From Dissophora ornata (taxonomy: Eukaryota > Mortierellomycota > Mortierellomycetes > Mortierellales > Mortierellaceae): a stretch of DNA of 64,000 nt. Location of the stretch: positions 20,561 through 84,560 of the forward strand of contig MU616605.1 of the NCBI GenBank assembly GCA_025201705.1. Reading direction: 5' to 3'. The stretch's first letter is position 1; each line of letters starts with the position of its first letter. The notes beneath the pieces are model-generated. The model ran no database searches. It was not told where the DNA came from and worked only from the letters and a program-made list of their open reading frames with translations. The position numbers were made by a program, and so were the translations under genes. Below are positions 1,132-49,380 of this stretch, piece by piece.

Positions 1132-3613
1132 TTATTTCTGATACTCTCGAGCCCTTCTAGCTGCTACCTTGAGGGATGTCCAGCCTGTGACGCTGGGCGA
1201 AGAGTCGTCCCCACCTCTTGTTCCAGAGGCGAGGTAGCTCCGGATTCTATGTAGTCGATCCAGAGCGAGTTTGACGCTCTCCTCCTTTGTCTGTGTTATT
1301 TCAAACACAGGTGCCGTCCATAGCGACAGGCTGCCAGTACATCCTGGAGGGTAAGTACCGACTGGGAGTCCTACTATCTCGCTCACCGGGACACACCCAA
1401 AAATCTCTAGCTCCCGCAACACCTCGTCGGGACCTGCATCTGCAGACACTGTAGCTTCTTTTTTCATCTCGTCGAGGACCGAGAATGTGAATGTGGTAAA
1501 TTCGTGCTCTTGTAATTGCAGCGTAAACATGCAAGTATTTGTTGGGATGAAAGCTCCTGCTGGCAGGTCACAGTCAACGATGATGCAGGATGGATCGACG
1601 AACGCGGCTGAAGAGACGGATGAGTTCTCGATATATACTGGTGGATTTATGGCACCGCAGCCACCTCCATCTTTGCTGATTGTCTCCGCAAAAGGCAAAG
1701 ACTCAACGCGAGCAATGCCTACGAAGTCATTACTGATATTGAGCTCCGACATGAATGCCGAATCTGTGCATACTCCTGCAACAAATTCCTCCATTGTCCC
1801 GAGGTGATAGAACTTGGAAGCATTGAGAACCATGACCTCCAAAGATACGCCCGACTCTTGCAGAGCCTGCTGCACGATCTGACGACCCTCCAAATGCGGG
1901 TCTGTGTTGGAGTTCGACGTGTAGGTAGGCAAGGAAGAGTCCTGGAGATTGAGAATATCTGCCCAGGCTTCCAAGTCGCACTCACGAGGAAGCATCCTGT
2001 ATGTCTAAAGTGACCATTTGTAGAGTAAGCAGCGTTAGCCTCCACAGAAACATTAAAGCCCTACCTTTGAAAAGGCGAAAGTGAAACCTACCCGGGCCAT
2101 GACACTGACTGTCTCCGGATCAAAGTAGTAACAACTGTCGGTGTAGACTTCATCTGCCATTTGTTTTGTCGAGCTAGGATAAACCACATTCGGTGTGCTC
2201 TGCATCATATCTAGCGTTCGGAATGGACAAAGAATAGTTAGGTACCGAGTTCGATCAGCAAAAAAAAAAAAAAAAAAAAAAAAANNNNNNNNNNAAAAAA
2301 AAAAAAAAAAAGAAAAAGAAAAGAAAAGACAGTAGCAGCCATGTTTTAGTTCTTTTGATCTCTCATTACCCAGAGATGGCTTGTGCAAAAACTTTCCGCA
2401 TTTTAAAAGCAGCGCGGATTGCTCTGCAGGCACTAACTGCCTATCCACTGCGATTAATCCACTAGGATCCTCTAGCATGTAAACGCCGTGTGTACGACCG
2501 ATATGCAACGAGGACGGGTGTGCCAAGGCCGTTATAGTCAACGGTTTGGGCTCGCAAGGGAACGGCGACTTGGACGCAAATAATTCAATTCCATCCGCGC
2601 TAGTCAAGAACACCTGGATGAGAAGAGGGGTGATTCAGTTATTGCATATACAATAGCCGCCGCTTTCGTTTTCTGTATATCACACCACCATAGTTCACCG
2701 AGATAAAACGTACACCTGGAGGCATGGTCCTTAGTAAGTGTAAGTAGAGAACGAGTTTCAAATCCAGAACTTGAATGCCGTCATGAGAGTCGGCTATTCT
2801 TTGTCCAGACAAATATGTAAAATGTTGGTACCAAGCCGAAACACAAAGTATCGAACGTAAAGTGGCGCCATTCGCCTCGAGAGATTAGAGATTACCTTGC
2901 GGCAACGTTGTAAAGACTTTGCCTCGTGCACTGACATGAGGAAGACGCGTGCTATAGCCGCCAGCATGAATCAGGAGAATACGTGCTTGATGATACAAGT
3001 CGATGTTATTGTGAGACTCTCAGTGTTTGGTGCCAAAATCACAAACGACGAGTGAAGTACCTTTGCGCAGAATCTCCTGAGGATAAATTTCGCTTAAGAC
3101 TTTCATTGCAAGGAACGTAGAACCTCCACTGCCAATCTTGGAGCTAGGCGGGTCTTCGATGACATGGTATCTTTGAGGACGCGTTAGCAGTTGGCACACA
3201 AATTCAGAATTGGGGGGACCAATTGGAATAGAGTCGACTAGCGCCACTCACTTGGCTTGCTGGGGAATCGCTCCCGTATCTAACTTTTGGTCTATCCGAC
3301 GCTCGTAGACAAGCCGTTGTTGAGTATCCCCTGCTGTCACTACTACGACATCCCAGAAAGGGACGCGTCCGTTGATTGCAGGGGCAGGTTGTTGCTCGCA
3401 CGCTAGCAGCTTCTTGTAGACAGCCAGGTTCTGGATGTGCGTATCTCGGAGTACTCTCGAAAGCGCGTCTTGACGTGCATGCACGTCGTCGCATGAGTCA
3501 CACTCGATGGCGAATGCCTCCATGGTGAAAATAGGGGTTGATGAAGGAGGAATACCGAAGGGTGACTGTCCCGAATACTCAAAGTACTCCCACGTTTTAT
3601 TTTCTGCCTCCAT
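1132..3613 (-). CDS. FPGT: Fucose-1-phosphate guanylyltransferase (GDP-L-fucose pyrophosphorylase)
   Basis: Seven exons join in phase: 3252-3613, 3061-3170, 2896-2985, 2714-2793, 2370-2613, 2092-2210, 1132-2004, giving 625 residues (animal FPGT is about 600). The enzyme makes GDP-L-fucose from fucose-1-phosphate and GTP in the cytosolic salvage route. Family landmarks appear in order: FWDVVVVTA, YHVIEDPPSSKIGSGGST, the glycine-rich nucleotide-binding loop LLIHAGGYSTRLP followed by GKVFTTLP, a segment with DGIELF, ALAHPSSLHIGRTHGV, FLHKPSL, VYTDSCYYF, VMVLNASKFYHLGTMEEF and CTGSLSLWTAPVF. The match is collinear over the whole length, so this is a full gene and not a fused kinase. The intron at 2211-2369 carries a poly-A/poly-T tract with a 10-base N gap, so that intron's length is uncertain. 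The start at 3613 lies 33 bp from the divergent start of the next gene. Exon ends are hand-called. Confidence 0.9.
2260..2328. repeat. Poly-A tract with 10-base assembly gap inside an FPGT intron
   Basis: A run of A on the plus strand is interrupted by Ns at 2285-2294 and then decays into AAAG/AAAAG. It lies in the sixth intron of the minus-strand gene, reading as a poly-pyrimidine tract upstream of the acceptor at 2211. It is probably a homopolymer that could not be sequenced through. Confidence 0.9.
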
Positions 3614-3646
3614 TGTTCTTTCACCTCATCCGGGACCCACGCCGCA
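3614..3646. promoter_or_regulatory. 33-bp divergent start-to-start spacer
   Basis: Only 33 bp separate the start codon of FPGT (minus, 3613) from that of the asparagine-synthetase-like gene (plus, 3647). No TATA box is visible. Either the core promoters overlap the opposing coding regions or the transcripts have minimal leaders. Co-regulation is an inference. Confidence 0.55.
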
Positions 3647-4783
3647 ATGTCTACACCGCTTCAGGAACAGCATGCGGATGACGCTGGAGCCTACCGTAGC
3701 GAGCCAGCTCGCATCCAAGAGCTCCGCCGCCTACTCCTCAGCTCTATCCAAAAATCCACCCCTTGCGACTGCATCCTCCTTTCCGGTGGTGTGGACACCT
3801 CCATTCTTGCCGAGGCCGCCTTTGCAGTCTACAACAGCAGCGACAATAAGCACGGAGATCTCCCGCGACCCCTCGTAGGCGCTGTCACCGTCCTATGCAC
3901 AGATCAGGCGACGGATGAATTCTATGCCACGAAAATCGCGGCGCGGACCGGGCTTGTTCAGGAGGTCGTCAGGATCACTCTCGATTCTGTTCTGGAAGAA
4001 CTCGAGTTTTGCATCAAGACCCTCGAAACTTTTGATCCCATGGAGCTCCGGAACGGGATCGTCATTGCCAGAGGACTCTCGATCGCCGAATCTCTCGGAT
4101 ACAAGACTGTAATGACAGGCGATGGTGCTGATGAGCTATTTGCTGGCTACTCGTTCCTGCACAACATGTCTGCAGAGAGGCTGCAAGCATATTCTGATAA
4201 ATTAACCAAGACCATGCGGTTTTCAGGCGTGACCTTGGCCAAAGCTCTGGGGCTGAGGCTGGTCCAACCGTACTTGGACCCAGAGCTCATCGCATTCTCG
4301 CAGCAGTGTACCCGGGACGAAAAGATAAATTATCATGATCACCCGAAAGACAGAGAATGGCAAGACCGACTCTCTGGAAGACAACTTCACGGCAAATTTA
4401 TTCTGAGGGAAGCCTTTGAGAAGGAGGCTTTCTCTGCATGGAGAAAGAAGGAGCCCATCGAAGTCGGATCGGGTACAACAGTTTTGCCAAAAATGTTCCA
4501 GGAAGCTATGGACCCCGAAGAGCTGAAGAGGGAGCAGGAGCGTATCTTGGCAGAGGATGGGATCAAAATCCGGGATGCCGAGCATCTGCAGTATTTCAGG
4601 GTGTTCAAGAAGGTCTTTGGCAACGACAAGAGCACCTATCCTGAGAAGCTGAAGAAGGATGGTCGAGACCCCTGTCCAGGGTGCGGGTTCAACCTCACAA
4701 CGCCCGACCAGACCTTCTGCGTGATCTGCGGGCAGTGGCCAGCGCGTGTTCTGCCTCCGCCAGAGGAGATTGCCAAAGCATAG
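3647..4783 (+). CDS. Stand-alone asparagine-synthetase-type ATP pyrophosphatase with C-terminal zinc knuckle
   Basis: This intronless gene encodes 378 residues. The PP-loop SGGVDTS is at residues 46-52 and the second family motif TGDGADELFAGY at 157-168; both are diagnostic of the asparagine synthetase ATP-binding domain (PF00733). The N-terminal glutaminase (class II amidotransferase) domain, which begins with a catalytic Cys right after Met in AsnB/ASNS, is absent: the protein starts only about 45 residues before the PP-loop. It could therefore use free ammonia, a different nitrogen donor or another acceptor. Near the C-terminus is a zinc-ribbon-like C-x2-C...C-x2-C pair (C343, C346, C358, C361), which is not part of classical asparagine synthetase. 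The lack of introns contrasts with its neighbours. The substrate cannot be told from sequence. It is convergent with the Uds1 gene, with 69 bp between stops. Confidence 0.85.
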   Translation: MSTPLQEQHADDAGAYRSEPARIQELRRLLLSSIQKSTPCDCILLSGGVDTSILAEAAFAVYNSSDNKHGDLPRPLVGAVTVLCTDQATDEFYATKIAARTGLVQEVVRITLDSVLEELEFCIKTLETFDPMELRNGIVIARGLSIAESLGYKTVMTGDGADELFAGYSFLHNMSAERLQAYSDKLTKTMRFSGVTLAKALGLRLVQPYLDPELIAFSQQCTRDEKINYHDHPKDREWQDRLSGRQLHGKFILREAFEKEAFSAWRKKEPIEVGSGTTVLPKMFQEAMDPEELKREQERILAEDGIKIRDAEHLQYFRVFKKVFGNDKSTYPEKLKKDGRDPCPGCGFNLTTPDQTFCVICGQWPARVLPPPEEIAKA

Positions 4784-4852
4784 ATTGTCACATCCACCAC
4801 GACTACCTCCTACAAGAGCTGAGCATTGTATTTGAAATAAATATATTAAATT

Positions 4853-7800
4853 CTAGGCATGCACGCTAATCTGGATAGTCTGCAGCTCTCGACGCAGCTG
4901 TCGCGCCTCACGCTCAAGTCGTCTCCTCTCTTCAACTTCTTTGCGGACAGCCTTTTCCTTCTCGTCTCGAAGTTCGCCCATCGCTCTCCTGAACTCTTTC
5001 CGCAATGCCGCGGTGGCGCCAGCCACCACCACACTGTTATTGCCACCAGGGCTAAGAACACCTGACGCTCGGTCGCTGCTGAGGGCATCTGAAGGAGGCG
5101 CAACAGGCGATGTAGCTCCAGAAGCTGTCTCAGATGAGTGGATTTGACTGACTGATCCATGACTCGCAGATCCTGCTATGCCGAGGCTGGATCCGAACCA
5201 CGACGTTAAGGGCGACTGTGAGTTGCTTGCAATAGACAAGTTCTTCAAGATTTGAGATCCCGAGCCGGGTCCTCCATTCAAGCTCTCCAGCGCGGCAACA
5301 ATCATGCGCATCTCACCAGCCTCCTCTTCCAGTTTACCGCACTTGCGTCGCAAATCCTCAAGTGCTGCCACATCGAATGAGCTCATCTCAGCGGCTGAGG
5401 TGGCACTGCCTCCAGCATCGTCAATGATCTTTGTCTTCGCCATGTCCAGTTCTATCTGCCTTATGGCCTTCTCTTGTTTCTGGACTAGTTCATCCCGTTC
5501 CCGCAGAAGCTTGTCTTTGACGCGGATGATCTCCTCTAGCTCGTCCAGGGCGTCATCCCGTGTCTGCCTTTGAACTACTCCTCCGAACACCGAGGATCGG
5601 CTGGGGGCAGGAGAGTTTGTTGTGTTTGCAGCGGCAAGGTCTGCTAGCCGAGCATTCTCGTCAAGGAGCATGTCTGTATGCTGCTTTAGCAAGTCCAGTT
5701 CTTTCTCCAACAGCTGGACCATGCCGGCGCTAGCCTGCAACCGTTCCAAGTCTGTGTTGAGGATCCAAGTCGACCGTTCTTGTTTTTGCTGCAACTGTTG
5801 ATGGGATGTCTCCAAGGACCGGAGGGTGTCAGAGCTCGCCTTCGCCTTTGGTTGGGTCCCGAGATTCTGACTACTACCCTGGTGACTATACGCAGTTCGT
5901 GCCTCAATTTGCTGCCTCAGCTCAACGTTGTCCTGCTCCACTTGCTGAGATTGTCCCACCAACTCCTTGACTCGGCTGATAAGCGACTCCATGCTAAAGC
6001 CAACGGCGCTTGAAGTCGATGGTGACAGAATGCTTCCTACAGAACCTGCACTGCTCGAAGTGGGGAGGTGCAAGGAACCGGCCCCTCCAGGACTTGATGC
6101 AATTTGTTGCTGTAGTTGTTGATGAGAAGAGTAAAGCTGCATGTGACTCTTTCGTCGTGAGTCTGGAATAAGGTCAAAAAGCAGGCGCATGGATTTGAGA
6201 CTTGACTGTTGCTGGTTGTTCAGGACATCGATCTCATCTATCGCCTCACGTAACTGCTTTCTGAGTTCCTGTACGACCCCATCCCTTGACAACGACCCCT
6301 CAGCGCTTTTCCCTGCTTCCTTTGCTACCAGCGCCTTTTTGTCCATGTCTTCAACTGCAACAAGACTTTCCTCAAGAGCACTGATCCGATGGTTCTGATC
6401 CTCTTGCCAGCGTTGACGCTCATTTTCCAGTTCCAACTGTGCGACTTCCTTTGCTAACAGAGCATCTTTCAGACTCTTTTCCAGGGCTGCCCGAATTGTC
6501 TCTTCGGCTTGGCCACCTCGAGGAGTGGAAAAGTTCTTAATCTTGATGCTGTTGTTCCGGCTCGCACTCAGAACCTGGGATTGACGTCTCAGAAGACCCA
6601 ATTCACCTTCGAGAATCTGCATTTTTTGCTGCGACTCTGTCGTACGGCTCTCAAGCACATCCAACGTCGATCGGATGCCCTCTATCGAAAATTGGAACGA
6701 TGATTCCGACTTCCCGGGGGTTGTCGAAGAGTTTGAGTTGACGTTGCCATTGGAAGGTCCAGACGACGTTGATATTAGCGTCGTCTCTGAAGGCCATGCT
6801 TGAGCCGCGCGATGTCTGTCACTGGTGGTTTCCTCATTATTTCTGTCCATCGGACCGCTGCTTTTATTTGTAGAGGTCTGTTTTTGGTGGCGCTCAGGCT
6901 GTTGCTGCTGCTGCTGCTGCTGCTGAAGTATCCTCTGCAATTGTTGTTGGACGAGGTTCAAAAAGTCAGTCATCTCTGCGGCAGTCTTTGCATCTTTGTT
7001 GTCATTGAGTGTATCCATATTCTTCTGGTGAGATTGAGAGAGCGCTGTCGTCTTTTGCTGCTGTTCATCCAATTTAACAAATAGATCTCGCTGATGCTCC
7101 AACTGCTTCATCAGCCGTTCGATAGCGCGATCCTTGTCCTCGAGGAGCGATTGGGCTTCAAGTGCATCAGATTCAAGGCTCATTATCACTTTCGCCATTG
7201 TTTCACTAGAAACGAGGAGGATATCAAGGGAGGCCCTGTTAGATACTACTACACAAAGTGAACATAGTACGCTACTCGGTTCAATCGTTTGCGCCTACAA
7301 TTGCTCTTCAACATCCTGTCCGACTCTTGCATCCTGAATTTGGATCACATGCATATCTCTCTCTCTGCGGCCCTGATCCTCCAATCGAACGACTCCAAAA
7401 GCCAAGACGCCCGATGTATGCTGCAAGAGTGTTCGTTGCAGATCCGCTGCTAGCTGGGTCAACTTCCAGAGCTCTGTTGCGACCTGATCCACTTTACGGT
7501 TCGCTGCTTCCAAATGGTCACTCGCCTGTCGAGCCAGCTTCTTGTTGTCAGCATGTAGTTTGAGAAGAGACTGGGCTGCCTCTCTTATCTTGGATTCCAA
7601 TGAAAGACGGGCAGTGAGGGCGGCAATCCTTGAGCTGAGCGTGGCGTGATGCTATTTCATTAGTTGTTTTATAAAGTGGACATATTAGTCATGACGCAAA
7701 GTGCATGTAACGGGATCATTTTTTTTCCATTTTGCGCATGCATTGCGTGAGGCAACTCGTAAGCGACAGGCGAACAGTGGAGTAAGACGATCTTGAAGAA

Positions 7801-20687: not shown

Positions 20688-23600
20688 CTATATATGCTTC
20701 CATGTCACAATGTTACATCTACTGGCCTCGGACACGTTAGACAGTGTCAGAGCTCCTTCATTCCCAATCTCGTTGTCTTGCAAGTTCAAAGTGGTCAAAG
20801 TGGTGTTGGTCTTGAGTGCCTCCGACAGTGCCAGAACTCCTTCATTACCAATCGAGTTGTTCCCCAAGTTCAAAGTGGTCAAAGTGGTGTTGGTCTTGAG
20901 TGCCTCTGACAGATCCAGAGCTCCTTCATTCCCAATCAAGTTGATCCACAAGTCCAAAGTGGTCAAAATGGTGTTAGTCTTGAGTGCCTCCGACAGTACC
21001 AGAGCTCCTTCCTTCCCAATCGAGTTGTTCCCCAACTTCAAAGTGGTCAAAGTGGTGTTGGTCTTAAGTGCCTCCGACAGTGCCAAAATTCCTTCATTAC
21101 CAATCGAGTTGCAATACAAGTCCAAAGTGGTCAAAGTGGTGTTGGTCTTGAGTGCCTCCGACAGGTCCAGAGCTCCTTCATTTCCAATTAGGTTGATCCA
21201 CAAGTCCAAANNNNNNNNNNNNNNNNNNNNNNNNNNNNNNNNNNNNNNNNNNNNNNNNNNNNNNNNNNNNNNNNNNNNNNNNNNNNNNNNNNNNNNNNNN
21301 NNNNNNNNNNNNNNNNNNNNNNNNNNNNNNNNNNNNNNNNNNNNNNNNNNNNNNNNNNNNNNNNNNNNNNNNNNNNNNNNNNNNNNNNNNNNNNNNNNNN
21401 NNNNNNNNNNNNNNNNNNNNNNNNNNNNNNNNNNNNNNNNNNNNNNNNNNNNNNNNNNNNNNNNNNNNNNNNNNNNNNNNNNNNNNNNNNNNNNNNNNNN
21501 NNNNNNNNNNNNNNNNNNNNNNNNNNNNNNNNNNNNNNNNNNNNNNNNNNNNNNNNNNNNNNNNNNNNNNNNNNNNNNNNNNNNNNNNNNNNNNNNNNNN
21601 NNNNNNNNNNNNNNNNNNNNNNNNNNNNNNNNNNNNNNNNNNNNNNNNNNNNNNNNNNNNNNNNNNNNNNNNNNNNNNNNNNNNNNNNNNNNNNNNNNNN
21701 NNNNNNNNNNNNNNNNNNNNNNNNNNNNNNNNNNNNNNNNNNNNNNNNNNNNNNNNNNNNNNNNNNNNNNNNNNNNNNNNNNNNNNNNNNNNNNNNNNNN
21801 NNNNNNNNNNNNNNNNNNNNNNNNNNNNNNNNNNNNNNNNNNNNNNNNNNNNNNNNNNNNNNNNNNNNNNNNNNNNNNNNNNNNNNNNNNNNNNNNNNNN
21901 NNNNNNNNNNNNNNNNNNNNNNNNNNNNNNNNNNNNNNNNNNNNNNNNNNNNNNNNNNNNNNNNNNNNNNNNNCAATCGAGTTGCTCTCCAAGTTCAAAG
22001 TGGTCAAAGGGCTGTTGGTCTTGAGTGATTTTACAAGTACCCGGAAATCACCAGCCCTAATCCCTTGAAGTGTCATCTCAATGGATAACTTATGAAGATG
22101 TGATGATCTTTTGGGTTGTAAACTAAGAAGCTTCATGAAATTCTCGGATAGAACGATATGAATCATTTTCATATTGGCGTGCTCTAAGATACGAGCAAGT
22201 ATTTCATATCGTGTGGATATTGAGAGCAGTTCGTTGGCGATGCTTGCTTGAAGCCGTTCGAGATCAAGTCGAAGAATTGATACACTTGACACCTTGATTG
22301 CTTTCTCAAATGCTTCAAGATCAGTCCTGGAGCAACTCCAGCCGAATGTGATATCCAAGTCGTAGACACCAACCTTCGCTTTGCTGATAGCCTCATAGAA
22401 CTCGCCTGCAGCAAAGCTAGACTTCAAGGTTGCTTTGATACTCCCAAGTTGCTCATCGAATACACCTCCTGCCAGCTTGACCACATCACGCAGCTTCTGG
22501 ATGTGCGCCTCTTGATAGCCTGCTCGATAGTGGTGGCGGCAGACCCATTTAACGTGACCATCCTTAGTTGTCATGCGGTACAGATTGCCCAGCAAGTTGT
22601 CTGAATTGTTGGTCTCCAGATATGATCCGAGTTGGCGCAGCTCCACCCCTTCCAATCCCTCAACACCAGTAAGGTAGCTGCCAAGGTCATGTAGCAATGC
22701 TCTTGCATCACCTTCAACACTGACATCACTCGATTTTTTTATTAGATTGCGAGTCTCCTCCAGATATGCCAAAGAATAATCCACACCCTGGATGATCTTG
22801 GAAGTAACCGAGTTGACAGAGGACTCTGCAAATTCGAGAGCATTGACTACCTTCAAGTTCGCTAGCGCTGGTACGACGTGGCCCGCAATACGTATTCCCG
22901 GTTTGATCATCTCGAGCATCAACATCAAAAAAGGTCCATACTTCTCAAAGAACTCTGTGGGCTTGTTGACGACATATCCTTCATGGTTGGCCAGGTGTAG
23001 GTGATGAGGGATCTCGCTTCTGGATGACTTGGTGTGTTCACCACACTCACAGATGAAATGCAACCGGAACTTGGTGTGGAGCATCGTCGTTGGGTCCCAG
23101 GATATCGACGTCTCAGGAAGGACAATGAACAGCCTTGGGATGGTGTATTCAAGCAGCTCATAGTTCTGGGTCAATATGGCCTCTGTCTTGCTCTGAATCA
23201 GAATCAAATTCATGGCGATTTCCTGCGTTAGATTAGGAAGTCCACCCAGCTGGTGAAGGACTGTACTCTCGAATTCATGATTGGCTACCATAGAGGCAAC
23301 CTTGCTCTTGCCATGCTCAGGCACTTTGCTCGAAGTAATGTCGCAGATGGGTGTGTCTCCAAGTGGCGGAGTGAAGTGTAAAGCCTCAACAACTTTGTCC
23401 TCAATCGAAGCCAAGACTGGGGCACCAGTTCGACCATCAGTCAGAGTCAGATTTGAAGTTGACATTGGAGGGTCAACATGGAAATACTTGGTAGTATGCC
23501 ACAAGGTAATATTCAAGACTACACCCGGGCAATGCTTGATGCAATGAGGTACGAATCTATTTCGCAGAAAAAGCACGCGGTACTTGCTCAACATGATTGT

Positions 23601-47464: not shown

Positions 47465-48259
47465 TTAGGCTGTTGGTTGAGGTGCTGACGACTGGGATGT
47501 CGTGCCCATTGGCTTTCTCTTTGGTGTCTTCTTGGGAAGCGATCTTTCAAACATGTTGATCGATCCAGCGCGTTCGATTCGCTTCTTCACCGATATGAGC
47601 GCTGCTGCCTCTCGCTCTAGTAAAGGCTCGTCGCTTCCCGGCGGAAAGGACTGCAAGATGGCATGGATGATGTTCTTCTTAAATAGATACATCACCGCAT
47701 TTGCATTGCTAATGGCCTTGGTAGAACCTCGGCGCCATGAAGTATTGAACCACTTGTTGAGCTGCAAGATCGACGGTTTCCCATTGACTCCATGAAACCA
47801 CTCTTGCCAGATATCCTCGAGTGAAGAATCGCGAGGAAGCATCTTGTACGCAGGCATATCCACAGGCTTGGCTGGAGGCGTCGCCGTCGCCGAAATCATG
47901 GCCATGAGCAACTCAACATTCTCGGGGCTCAATGGAGTGCGGCTCGAAGAAGGATCCTGCGGCTCCAGCAGCCGCAACTCTGACGACGCAGAGCCATTGA
48001 CCGCAGGATGGACAGCTGTTGGTTCATGCTGCGCATCCAGTTGGGTGGGAGCTATGGCAGGAATCGTGCATGGGCCTGCATCAGGAACCTCCAAGTCGAG
48101 ATCCATGTCGAGGTTCGTGTCAAGATTCATATCACGGTTCGTTTCAAGATCCAAGATGGCGGTAGAGGCTCGTAGTTGGGATGCTGTCTGCTGTTGGAGT
48201 AGTGGGTGGAGCTCTTCCTCCATGATAAGATGAATCTGCGATGCGATTCGATTCATCAC
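47465..48259 (-). CDS. GCR1_C DNA-binding domain protein (Crypton-tail-like)
   Basis: A single-exon frame of 264 residues. Residues about 135-200 match the GCR1_C fold (PF12550), named from the yeast glycolytic activator Gcr1 and common at the C-terminus of fungal Crypton recombinases: YKMLPRDSSLEDIWQEWFHG, then GKPSILQLNKWFNTSWRRG and a helical end. The first 130 residues include a helix-prone start, an unusual Asp/Leu/Asn run near residues 40-55 and disordered Pro/Ser sequence. No tyrosine-recombinase block precedes it; the frame is closed a few codons upstream of the first Met. It is therefore either a domesticated DNA-binding protein or the stranded tail of a Crypton whose catalytic part is lost. 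It starts only 40 bp from the divergent Fanzor-like fragment. Confidence 0.72.
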   Translation of the reverse strand: MMNRIASQIHLIMEEELHPLLQQQTASQLRASTAILDLETNRDMNLDTNLDMDLDLEVPDAGPCTIPAIAPTQLDAQHEPTAVHPAVNGSASSELRLLEPQDPSSSRTPLSPENVELLMAMISATATPPAKPVDMPAYKMLPRDSSLEDIWQEWFHGVNGKPSILQLNKWFNTSWRRGSTKAISNANAVMYLFKKNIIHAILQSFPPGSDEPLLEREAAALISVKKRIERAGSINMFERSLPKKTPKRKPMGTTSQSSAPQPTA

Positions 48260-48298
48260 TCGGCTCTATACGATCCTGTTCTACGCCATCGTGAAGCC

Positions 48299-49039
48299 AT
48301 GAATATGGCCAAAAATACGCGCAGTATCCTTACTCCACAACAGACGGCCGTTAATACCGCCAGTCGGTCAGTCATTCTCCCTTCTGTGAACGACCTACAA
48401 AACAATCTGACGGGCTTTGGGGACGGGGGGCGCAAGGATGTTCAAACGCATTTCGAGCAGTGGAGTAGCTTATTCCTACAGCTAAGAATGTTCTACGGCT
48501 CAATATCGTACAAAAAAAACGGATGGGCTCGGCGAAACGCCTTTCGAGCCGAGCGCGATTGGGCTGTTAAGGGTCTACTCCGTTGTGCGGACCCTTCCCT
48601 TCGGGTCCATGAGAAAGCTAAAGGCCACGATGTCCTCTTTGTTTATGGAAATGCAAAGTTCAATACGCGGACCAAGCTGGCGTCACTGCACGAAACCTTC
48701 AAGGGCTATTTCTTCAACAAGGTACTATCCCAATTTTATTTTTTATTCGAAATGATTGCCCCGCCTCTGACAAAACAACCTGCTTTGAATGTTTCATTTT
48801 AGGCCAGTGCCCTGGGGTACACTGTGGTGAGCACTGACGAATACAAAACCTCGTCGGTGTGCCCCAGATGCGATACCGATGTCGTCAAGCCGACAATGCG
48901 GTCGTGCTATTGTACATCGTGCAAGCGTTATATCCACCGAGACATCCTCGGCGCGCACAATATCGCGCGCATTGGACACAGCTGGATTACGGCCCAGACG
49001 CGCCCTGCGGCCCTCAAGCGCCAAATAATCGTCAGCTGA
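48299..49039 (+). CDS. Fanzor-type (TnpB-like) RNA-guided nuclease, C-terminal half
   Basis: Exons 48299-48721 and 48803-49039 join in phase to 219 residues (intron 48722-48802, donor AAG|GTACTA, acceptor TTTTAG). The C-terminus carries the TnpB/Fanzor signature: GYTVVSTDEYKTSSVCPRC, then CTSC, then YIHRDILGAHNIARIG. This supplies a four-Cys zinc ribbon (C161, C164, C178, C181) and the RuvC-III Asp (D188). Upstream, FVYGNAKFNTRTKLASLHET and YGSISYKKNGWARRNAFRAE fit the Fanzor1 region before the ribbon. E154 in DEY sits where an alternative catalytic Glu has been described for Fanzors. Fanzor proteins are usually 450-700 residues; the RuvC-I Asp region and RNA-binding N-terminus are missing, displaced by the divergent GCR1_C gene. 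The frame that remains is intact. It is probably a truncated, nuclease-dead copy. Confidence 0.82.
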
Positions 49040-49380
49040 ACTGACGAACACAATTTACTGTTAAGGTTCGTAAACCACCAGTCCGAGATCGATTCATAAT
49101 CCAGTGGTTCATAATCATAACGGTATGGACCGAAACTAACTATTTACGGCTACAGTAACTTGATCAAAGGCATCGTCGTGTAATAAAATAGAGTATAGCC
49201 ATAAGATAAAAATTGGTATCGAGAAAAAGGGCAAGAGAGAGAGAGAGAGACACACACAGTGTCGGTTTGCCACCGACAGCCTTTTTCACACGCTTTCACT
49301 ATAAAGGCATATTTCCTCACACCACTCTTCTCTCTTTTCCTCCTCTTTGTCCTCACGCGCAAATACTCACTCAGTCACTC

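Follow-up and report, generated by a model that had tools for sequence, protein, structure and literature searches.

A 5′-truncated copy of an XPG-Fanzor nuclease gene in Dissophora ornata and its predicted full-length relatives in Mortierellaceae

Our analysis concerned a stretch of 64,000 nucleotides from the genome of the soil fungus Dissophora ornata, hereafter the window (contig MU616605.1 or C44, positions 20561-84560, in a 31.4-Mb assembly of 968 contigs), and in it a gene fragment at 48263-49039 on the forward strand, whose two exons, free of stops, make up the last 231 codons of a gene for a Fanzor/TnpB nuclease. Sequence comparison and structural models make it almost certain that this is a 5′-truncated copy of a mobile XPG-Fanzor gene. 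The 231 codons are counted from the duplication boundary at 48263; the first ATG lies at 48299, 219 amino acids are encoded from there, and the TGA is at 49037-49039. The frame is open back across the boundary, and the duplicated part starts only at 48263. An earlier reading of the letters alone (the sequence-only reading) had described an open reading frame at 48299-49039 with a clean intron, a surviving half free of stops, and zinc ribbon and RuvC-III motifs, all of which were borne out. Its limits stand as coordinates of the open reading frame (ORF), but homology begins 36 nt upstream of the ATG and extends to at least 49169.

In a profile search, exon 2 matched the Pfam family Cas12f1-like_TNB with 40.3 bits (cut-off 26.3; E 3.5e-10), which is more than chance, while no Pfam family matched exon 1 alone. 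In exon 2, RuvC-III reads HRDILGAHN, and the relocated RuvC-II glutamate is present six residues before the zinc ribbon (DEYKTSSVCPRC). The Fanzor motif given in the main text of PMC3627910 is D-X(125,275)-[TS]-[TS]-X-X-[C4 zinc finger]-X(5,50)-RD. The fragment holds only its TS-C4-RD part, and the DPG of RuvC-I is missing through truncation. With neither an XPG nor a WED domain and with no RuvC-I aspartate, the window copy should not cut DNA and is predicted to be inactive. A zinc ribbon of a non-TnpB family was rejected, as the Pfam TNB match, the spacing of the glutamate and the fold of relatives point to Fanzor; the zinc-ribbon alternative C1_1 matched under its cut-off. No Rfam family was matched in the window at gathering thresholds, and no tRNA gene was found there.

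DNA comparison showed that window positions 48263-49169 are 99.2% identical over 907 bp to C228:41168-42074, up to the end of contig C228. Read in frame, the differences fall on seven sites, four synonymous, two nonsynonymous and one intronic. The C228 gene continues upstream through RuvC-I (VVGIDPGEVV) and further, so that both the longer relative and the RuvC-I-bearing relatives on which the Fanzor assignment had been made to depend are present in this genome. This near-identity supports the view that the window copy arose by recent duplication with loss of its 5′ part. It is not an intact gene, since everything up to and including RuvC-I is gone, and not a retrocopy, since the intron is kept. 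The sequence-only reading had suggested either recent decay or a C-terminal half kept for another role; the recent duplication agrees with the former, and nothing positively indicates a new protein role. The C228 copy is probably not intact and itself a pseudogene, because its gene model has one in-frame stop and one frame break upstream, for which an unmodelled intron or an assembly error are alternatives.

On the other side of the boundary lies a GCR1_C gene, divergent from the Fanzor fragment and truncated at the same junction. In its paralogue on C59 the frame runs on past the start codon of the window gene, and the paralogue has an NDC10_II match (E 1.1e-6). NDC10_II is a domain that marks Crypton tyrosine recombinases. 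As both sides of the junction are truncated, the window joins two damaged genes.

Table 1. Features at the truncated Fanzor locus of the window
Feature	Position	Strand	Evidence or remark
Truncated GCR1_C gene, probably encoding the C-terminal end of a Crypton-like protein	47465..48256	-	GCR1_C E 1e-11; C59 paralogue
Junction of two truncated genes	48262..48263	.	C228 similarity begins at 48263; GCR1_C-side similarity to C59 stops at 48261
Segment duplicated in C228	48263..49169	+	DNA comparison; right limit is the end of the C228 contig
Exon 1 of truncated Fanzor: RuvC part between RuvC-I and the relocated RuvC-II Glu	48263..48721	+	99.2% identity to C228; open frame
Intron, 81 nt, GT-AG	48722..48802	+	Models of L022 and L023 have an intron at the equivalent site, directly ahead of the TNB exon
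Exon 2: relocated RuvC-II Glu (DEYKTSSVC), C4 zinc ribbon, RuvC-III (HRD), stop	48803..49039	+	Pfam TNB; at least 66 related genome places
Stem-loop TCGTCAGCTGAACTGACGA, candidate guide-RNA scaffold or element end	49029..49047	+	Exact genome matches only at five 3′ ends of the window subfamily
Short palindrome GGTTCGTAAACC, in C62 as GGTTCATGAACC	49065..49076	+	Weak

Our analysis also revealed full-length relatives. At locus L022 (C141), four GT-AG introns were identified and splicing gives one protein of 1300 amino acids; at L023 (C298), the spliced product has 1178 amino acids and the same layout. The order in both is an XPG/FEN1/EXO1-like domain, a linker (FNRYRTID), a helical region and the Fanzor part, and C228, the parent type of the window copy, has the same domain order. 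Sequence and structural models indicate that each full-length member is a single polypeptide, which opens with an XPG/FEN1/EXO1-type nuclease and ends in a Fanzor made up of a helical region, WED, RuvC and TNB. The N-terminal nuclease is beyond what the sequence-only reading could see in the fragment.

Copies in the genome were counted as lower bounds, and some loci give several XPG pieces. For the TNB exon there were at least 66 places, spread over 62 contigs, and for the XPG exon at least 34, spread over 29. At 14 loci the two exons share a strand and follow each other as expected within 6 kb (1.0-3.3 kb apart), and the wrong order was never seen. It could be argued that XPG and Fanzor are two neighbouring genes wrongly joined by annotation pipelines and by our splicing, the more so as several deposited models are partial. 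We consider this very improbable: at two loci, removal of GT-AG introns yields a single open frame that includes conserved linker motifs, the 14 loci agree in order and spacing, and many independent deposited models agree on the fusion, which is shown, for example, in P0004, P0009, P0017, P0019, P0048, P0049 and P0054.

Database searches with the RuvC region of L022 returned 46 proteins and with that of C228 returned 10. A further search (A4), limited to about 278-885 amino acids so as to catch shorter and possibly unfused relatives, scored only the 7996 candidates that shared most words and found among them only two Mortierella alpina proteins. All 58 of the 58 matches bear Mortierellaceae names (genera checked), in line with the Mortierella-like genome suspected from the letters, and the XPG-Fanzor family was found only in Mortierellaceae in these searches. 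The best match to the window subfamily is P0047 of M. alpina, with 52% identity over 97% of the RuvC-TNB query. The seven best Foldseek matches of its modelled fold are SpuFz, PpFz and GtFz entries; models show the REC-WED-RuvC-TNB fold in P0004 and P0047 and the XPG fold in relatives of the fragment. In a midpoint-rooted tree of 57 rows, built from L022, L023, C228 and 54 of the 58 database proteins, the window type falls with the M. alpina proteins P0047, P0048, P0049 and P0056 (support 0.91). Rows with an XPG domain are present on either side of the root, which makes it likely that the fusion predates the split of the two branches. One further protein, P0058 (M. alpina, 629 amino acids, named RING-type), combines a TNB zinc ribbon with other Pfam domains, by gene merger or model error.

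Catalytic residues were counted over only those rows with a residue at the position concerned. The seven acids that we take, on the pattern of FEN1, to be the metal-binding set of XPG are kept in 25/26, 32/32, 33/35, 35/35, 33/34, 35/35 and 40/41 rows. One of them is Asp in the XPG-Fanzor family, at a position where FEN1 has Glu. That the XPG domain serves as a structural or DNA-binding module only would agree with its weak sequence similarity in single proteins; with seven acids so well kept (25/26 to 40/41 rows), this is scarcely probable. The RuvC residues D-E-D are kept in 57/57, 38/41 and 39/40 rows, the second count being that of the relocated RuvC-II Glu. According to the main text of PMC10711439, the fingerprints of Fanzor are the RuvC-I DPG and the relocated Glu. 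C228 has both, and IDPG is present in C228, P0047-P0050 and P0052. The DPG in C228, the relocated Glu in the window subfamily and the Fanzor fold modelled for P0047 uphold the Fanzor identity proposed earlier. The longer published motif is also present in L022 (D956 to T1167, 210 between) and in C228 (D1067 to T1266, 198 between).

Five right ends (C4, C96, C209, C918 and C430, the last with 94 nt only) are 98-100% identical to each other up to one shared terminus and then run into five unrelated flanks. They belong to a subfamily other than that of the window, and they show that this other subfamily has moved, probably recently. The rival view is that the family now consists of host genes, for genome defence or regulation, with only some copies still moving. 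The many diverged copies speak for it, and so does purifying selection in some pairs: dN/dS is 0.25 over 907 codons for L023-L024 (0.23 over 821 codons for the C part), 0.26 over 417 codons for L023-L025, 0.44 over 1046 codons for L022-L020 and 0.35 over 366 codons for the RuvC of C228-C24. We hold it to be improbable in view of the five near-identical right ends in unrelated flanks and of the many copies that are truncated or broken. Upstream of the C228 gene (L009), a 175-bp tandem repeat of 2.5 copies spans 625-1053, and a 17-bp one spans 1115-1189, immediately ahead of the start codon. The C190 and C24 copies are preceded by related repeats; those of L009 may be promoter units or may belong to the left end. 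At L019 (C21), two related RuvC exons stand in tandem within 3033-5792 (ORFs 3033-4382 and 4971-5792), of which the second contains N-derived X residues.

Several results weigh against the identification of this family as mobile XPG-Fanzor genes. The middle residue of RuvC-I over 57 rows is L in 43, P in 9, G in 3, M in 1 and V in 1; the larger, L022-type branch thus has mostly DLG and not DPG, and its Fanzor label rests on the fold and the relocated Glu, which is kept. XPG matches of single sequences lie under the Pfam cut-offs. By sequence, none of the Fanzor chains was matched by profile A1 up to E 0.1, and with profile A3 the match to SpuFz was no better than 0.017. A search for left ends and target-site duplications found neither, the near-identical copies running into contig ends. 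In the XPG part of the window subfamily, dN/dS is 0.74 over 195 codons (C228-C24) and 1.58 over 131 codons (C228-C190), in copies damaged by stops.

A stem-loop at the 3′ end of the fragment, TCGTYARCTGAACTGACGA, has five exact matches in the genome (the window, C228, C24, C62 and C3), all at 3′ ends of the subfamily. As its pattern was written from four of these five, what is informative is the lack of any further exact match in the genome; a sixth match has two mismatches, and the reversed pattern, used as a control, gave one. Directly before the stem-loop there are indels of 10 nt (C62 and C3) and 11 nt (C24), so the frame is shifted while the stem-loop is retained. This suggests that the sequence matters as nucleic acid, as would be expected of a guide-RNA scaffold. 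C3:108683-108811 and C62:36186-36291 are short fragments with only the 3′ end of the window subfamily, stem-loop included.

Folding of the window 3′ end gave modest values (z -0.93, -2.0 and -1.87), and the L022 3′ end folds no better than its shuffles (z 0.63). The right end of C209 forms a hairpin in its last 67 nt, 21 nt of flank included (z -2.8); over 150 nt its fold is unremarkable (z -0.47). For Fanzor1, guide RNAs of 75, 90 and 150 nt have been published from three species (PMC11423790). The window fragment could still be in use, either by encoding a small zinc-ribbon protein or by providing guide RNA to full-length proteins, as its 231-codon open frame, its intact stem-loop and the short C62 and C3 fragments with the same 3′ part might suggest. 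This is quite improbable: RuvC-I, WED and XPG are gone, and with four synonymous and two nonsynonymous changes the copy is of too recent origin for selection to be visible.

By homology to Fanzor, we infer that intact members would be guided by RNA. Such a member would bind an RNA derived from the element's 3′ end together with adjoining host sequence, and its RuvC would cut matching DNA, for example an unoccupied allele. The XPG domain would then process 5′ ends or flaps of the break, and repair by homologous recombination would copy the element. Cutting with XPG processing that favours copying is a tentative proposal that may well be wrong; identity and mechanism jointly, as the best explanation, we regard as moderately probable. 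Fusion of Cas9 to end-resection exonucleases raised homologous recombination in Pichia (reported in PMC9450370), which makes the proposed division of labour plausible. A bolder version is clearly unlikely, namely that a single polypeptide serves in Mortierellaceae as a natural RNA-guided gene-drive module, in which Fanzor cuts the unoccupied allele, the fused EXO1-like nuclease resects at once and forces homologous copying, and 5′-truncated copies like that of the window retain the 3′ end and supply extra guide RNAs in trans.

The fusion may also be real with its XPG domain serving mobility or target cutting (at flaps or R-loop edges that the Fanzor complex creates, in excision, insertion or staggered cutting) and not resection for homologous copying. 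This is possible though unlikely, as GCR1_C/Crypton genes near some copies could supply a recombinase instead. Of 14 GCR1_C matches in the genome, four lie within 6 kb of an XPG-Fanzor locus against 0.45 expected (P 0.0008), whereas NDC10_II is not enriched there (2/20 within 6 kb, P 0.13). On C228, a GCR1_C gene lies upstream of the XPG-Fanzor gene in divergent orientation; on C24, a remnant of 29 residues is left of such a gene. The window piece has GCR1_C only, the C59 paralogue NDC10_II, and C824 both domains; the GCR1_C gene of C753 is outside the NDC10_II matches, so not every GCR1_C gene here is a Crypton. Because mobile elements cluster, the link between GCR1_C/Crypton genes and the XPG-Fanzor family is suggestive only. 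A comparable association is known from the MCi elements of Mucor, where MCi stands for Mucor circinelloides. In MCi-2, a Fanzor1 occurs with a partial Crypton transposase, and the main text describing it does not mention XPG (PMC3627910). Crypton recombinases are also listed among Fanzor1 partners in the main text of PMC10711439.

No description of an XPG-Fanzor fusion was found in the library of open papers searched, and the terms XPG and flap are both absent from the main texts of PMC10711439, PMC10432273, PMC3627910 and PMC11423790. The approximately 2,500 putative Fanzors mined from NCBI eukaryotic proteins (PMC10711439, main text) may include some XPG-Fanzor sequences. The family differs from Fanzor1 (SpuFz1, PpFz1 and GtFz1) by the fused N-terminal XPG/FEN1/EXO1-type nuclease and, in the larger branch, by DLG for DPG; PpFz1 has a different extra domain of its own, FRI, which binds cyclophilin (PMC11423790, main text). 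From the XPG/Rad2 family (EXO1, FEN1, Rad2/XPG and GEN1) it differs in that the XPG domain sits in a Fanzor polypeptide, with low sequence identity of about 16%. Engineered Cas9-exonuclease fusions likewise join an RNA-guided nuclease to an end-resection nuclease, such as Exo1 or Mre11 (PMC9450370), but they are man-made and Cas9-based, whereas XPG-Fanzor is natural, Fanzor-based and known here from sequence and models. It may thus be their natural counterpart, in which cutting and end processing should be separable by mutation. The window feature is a fragment, and its value lies in leading to this lineage, which has kept both predicted active sites and multiplied in one fungal family. The lineage offers a testable answer to why Fanzors persist in eukaryotic transposons: the break may be meant for a particular repair.

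Elsewhere in the window, an 84-bp tandem repeat of 5.6 copies lies at 20740-21210 and is, as judged by eye, possibly part of a leucine-rich-repeat gene. Within the region of about 21250-21980, the G+C content drops to 0 in 21400-21699, which is probably a run of N (an assembly gap or masked stretch) and not AT-rich DNA.
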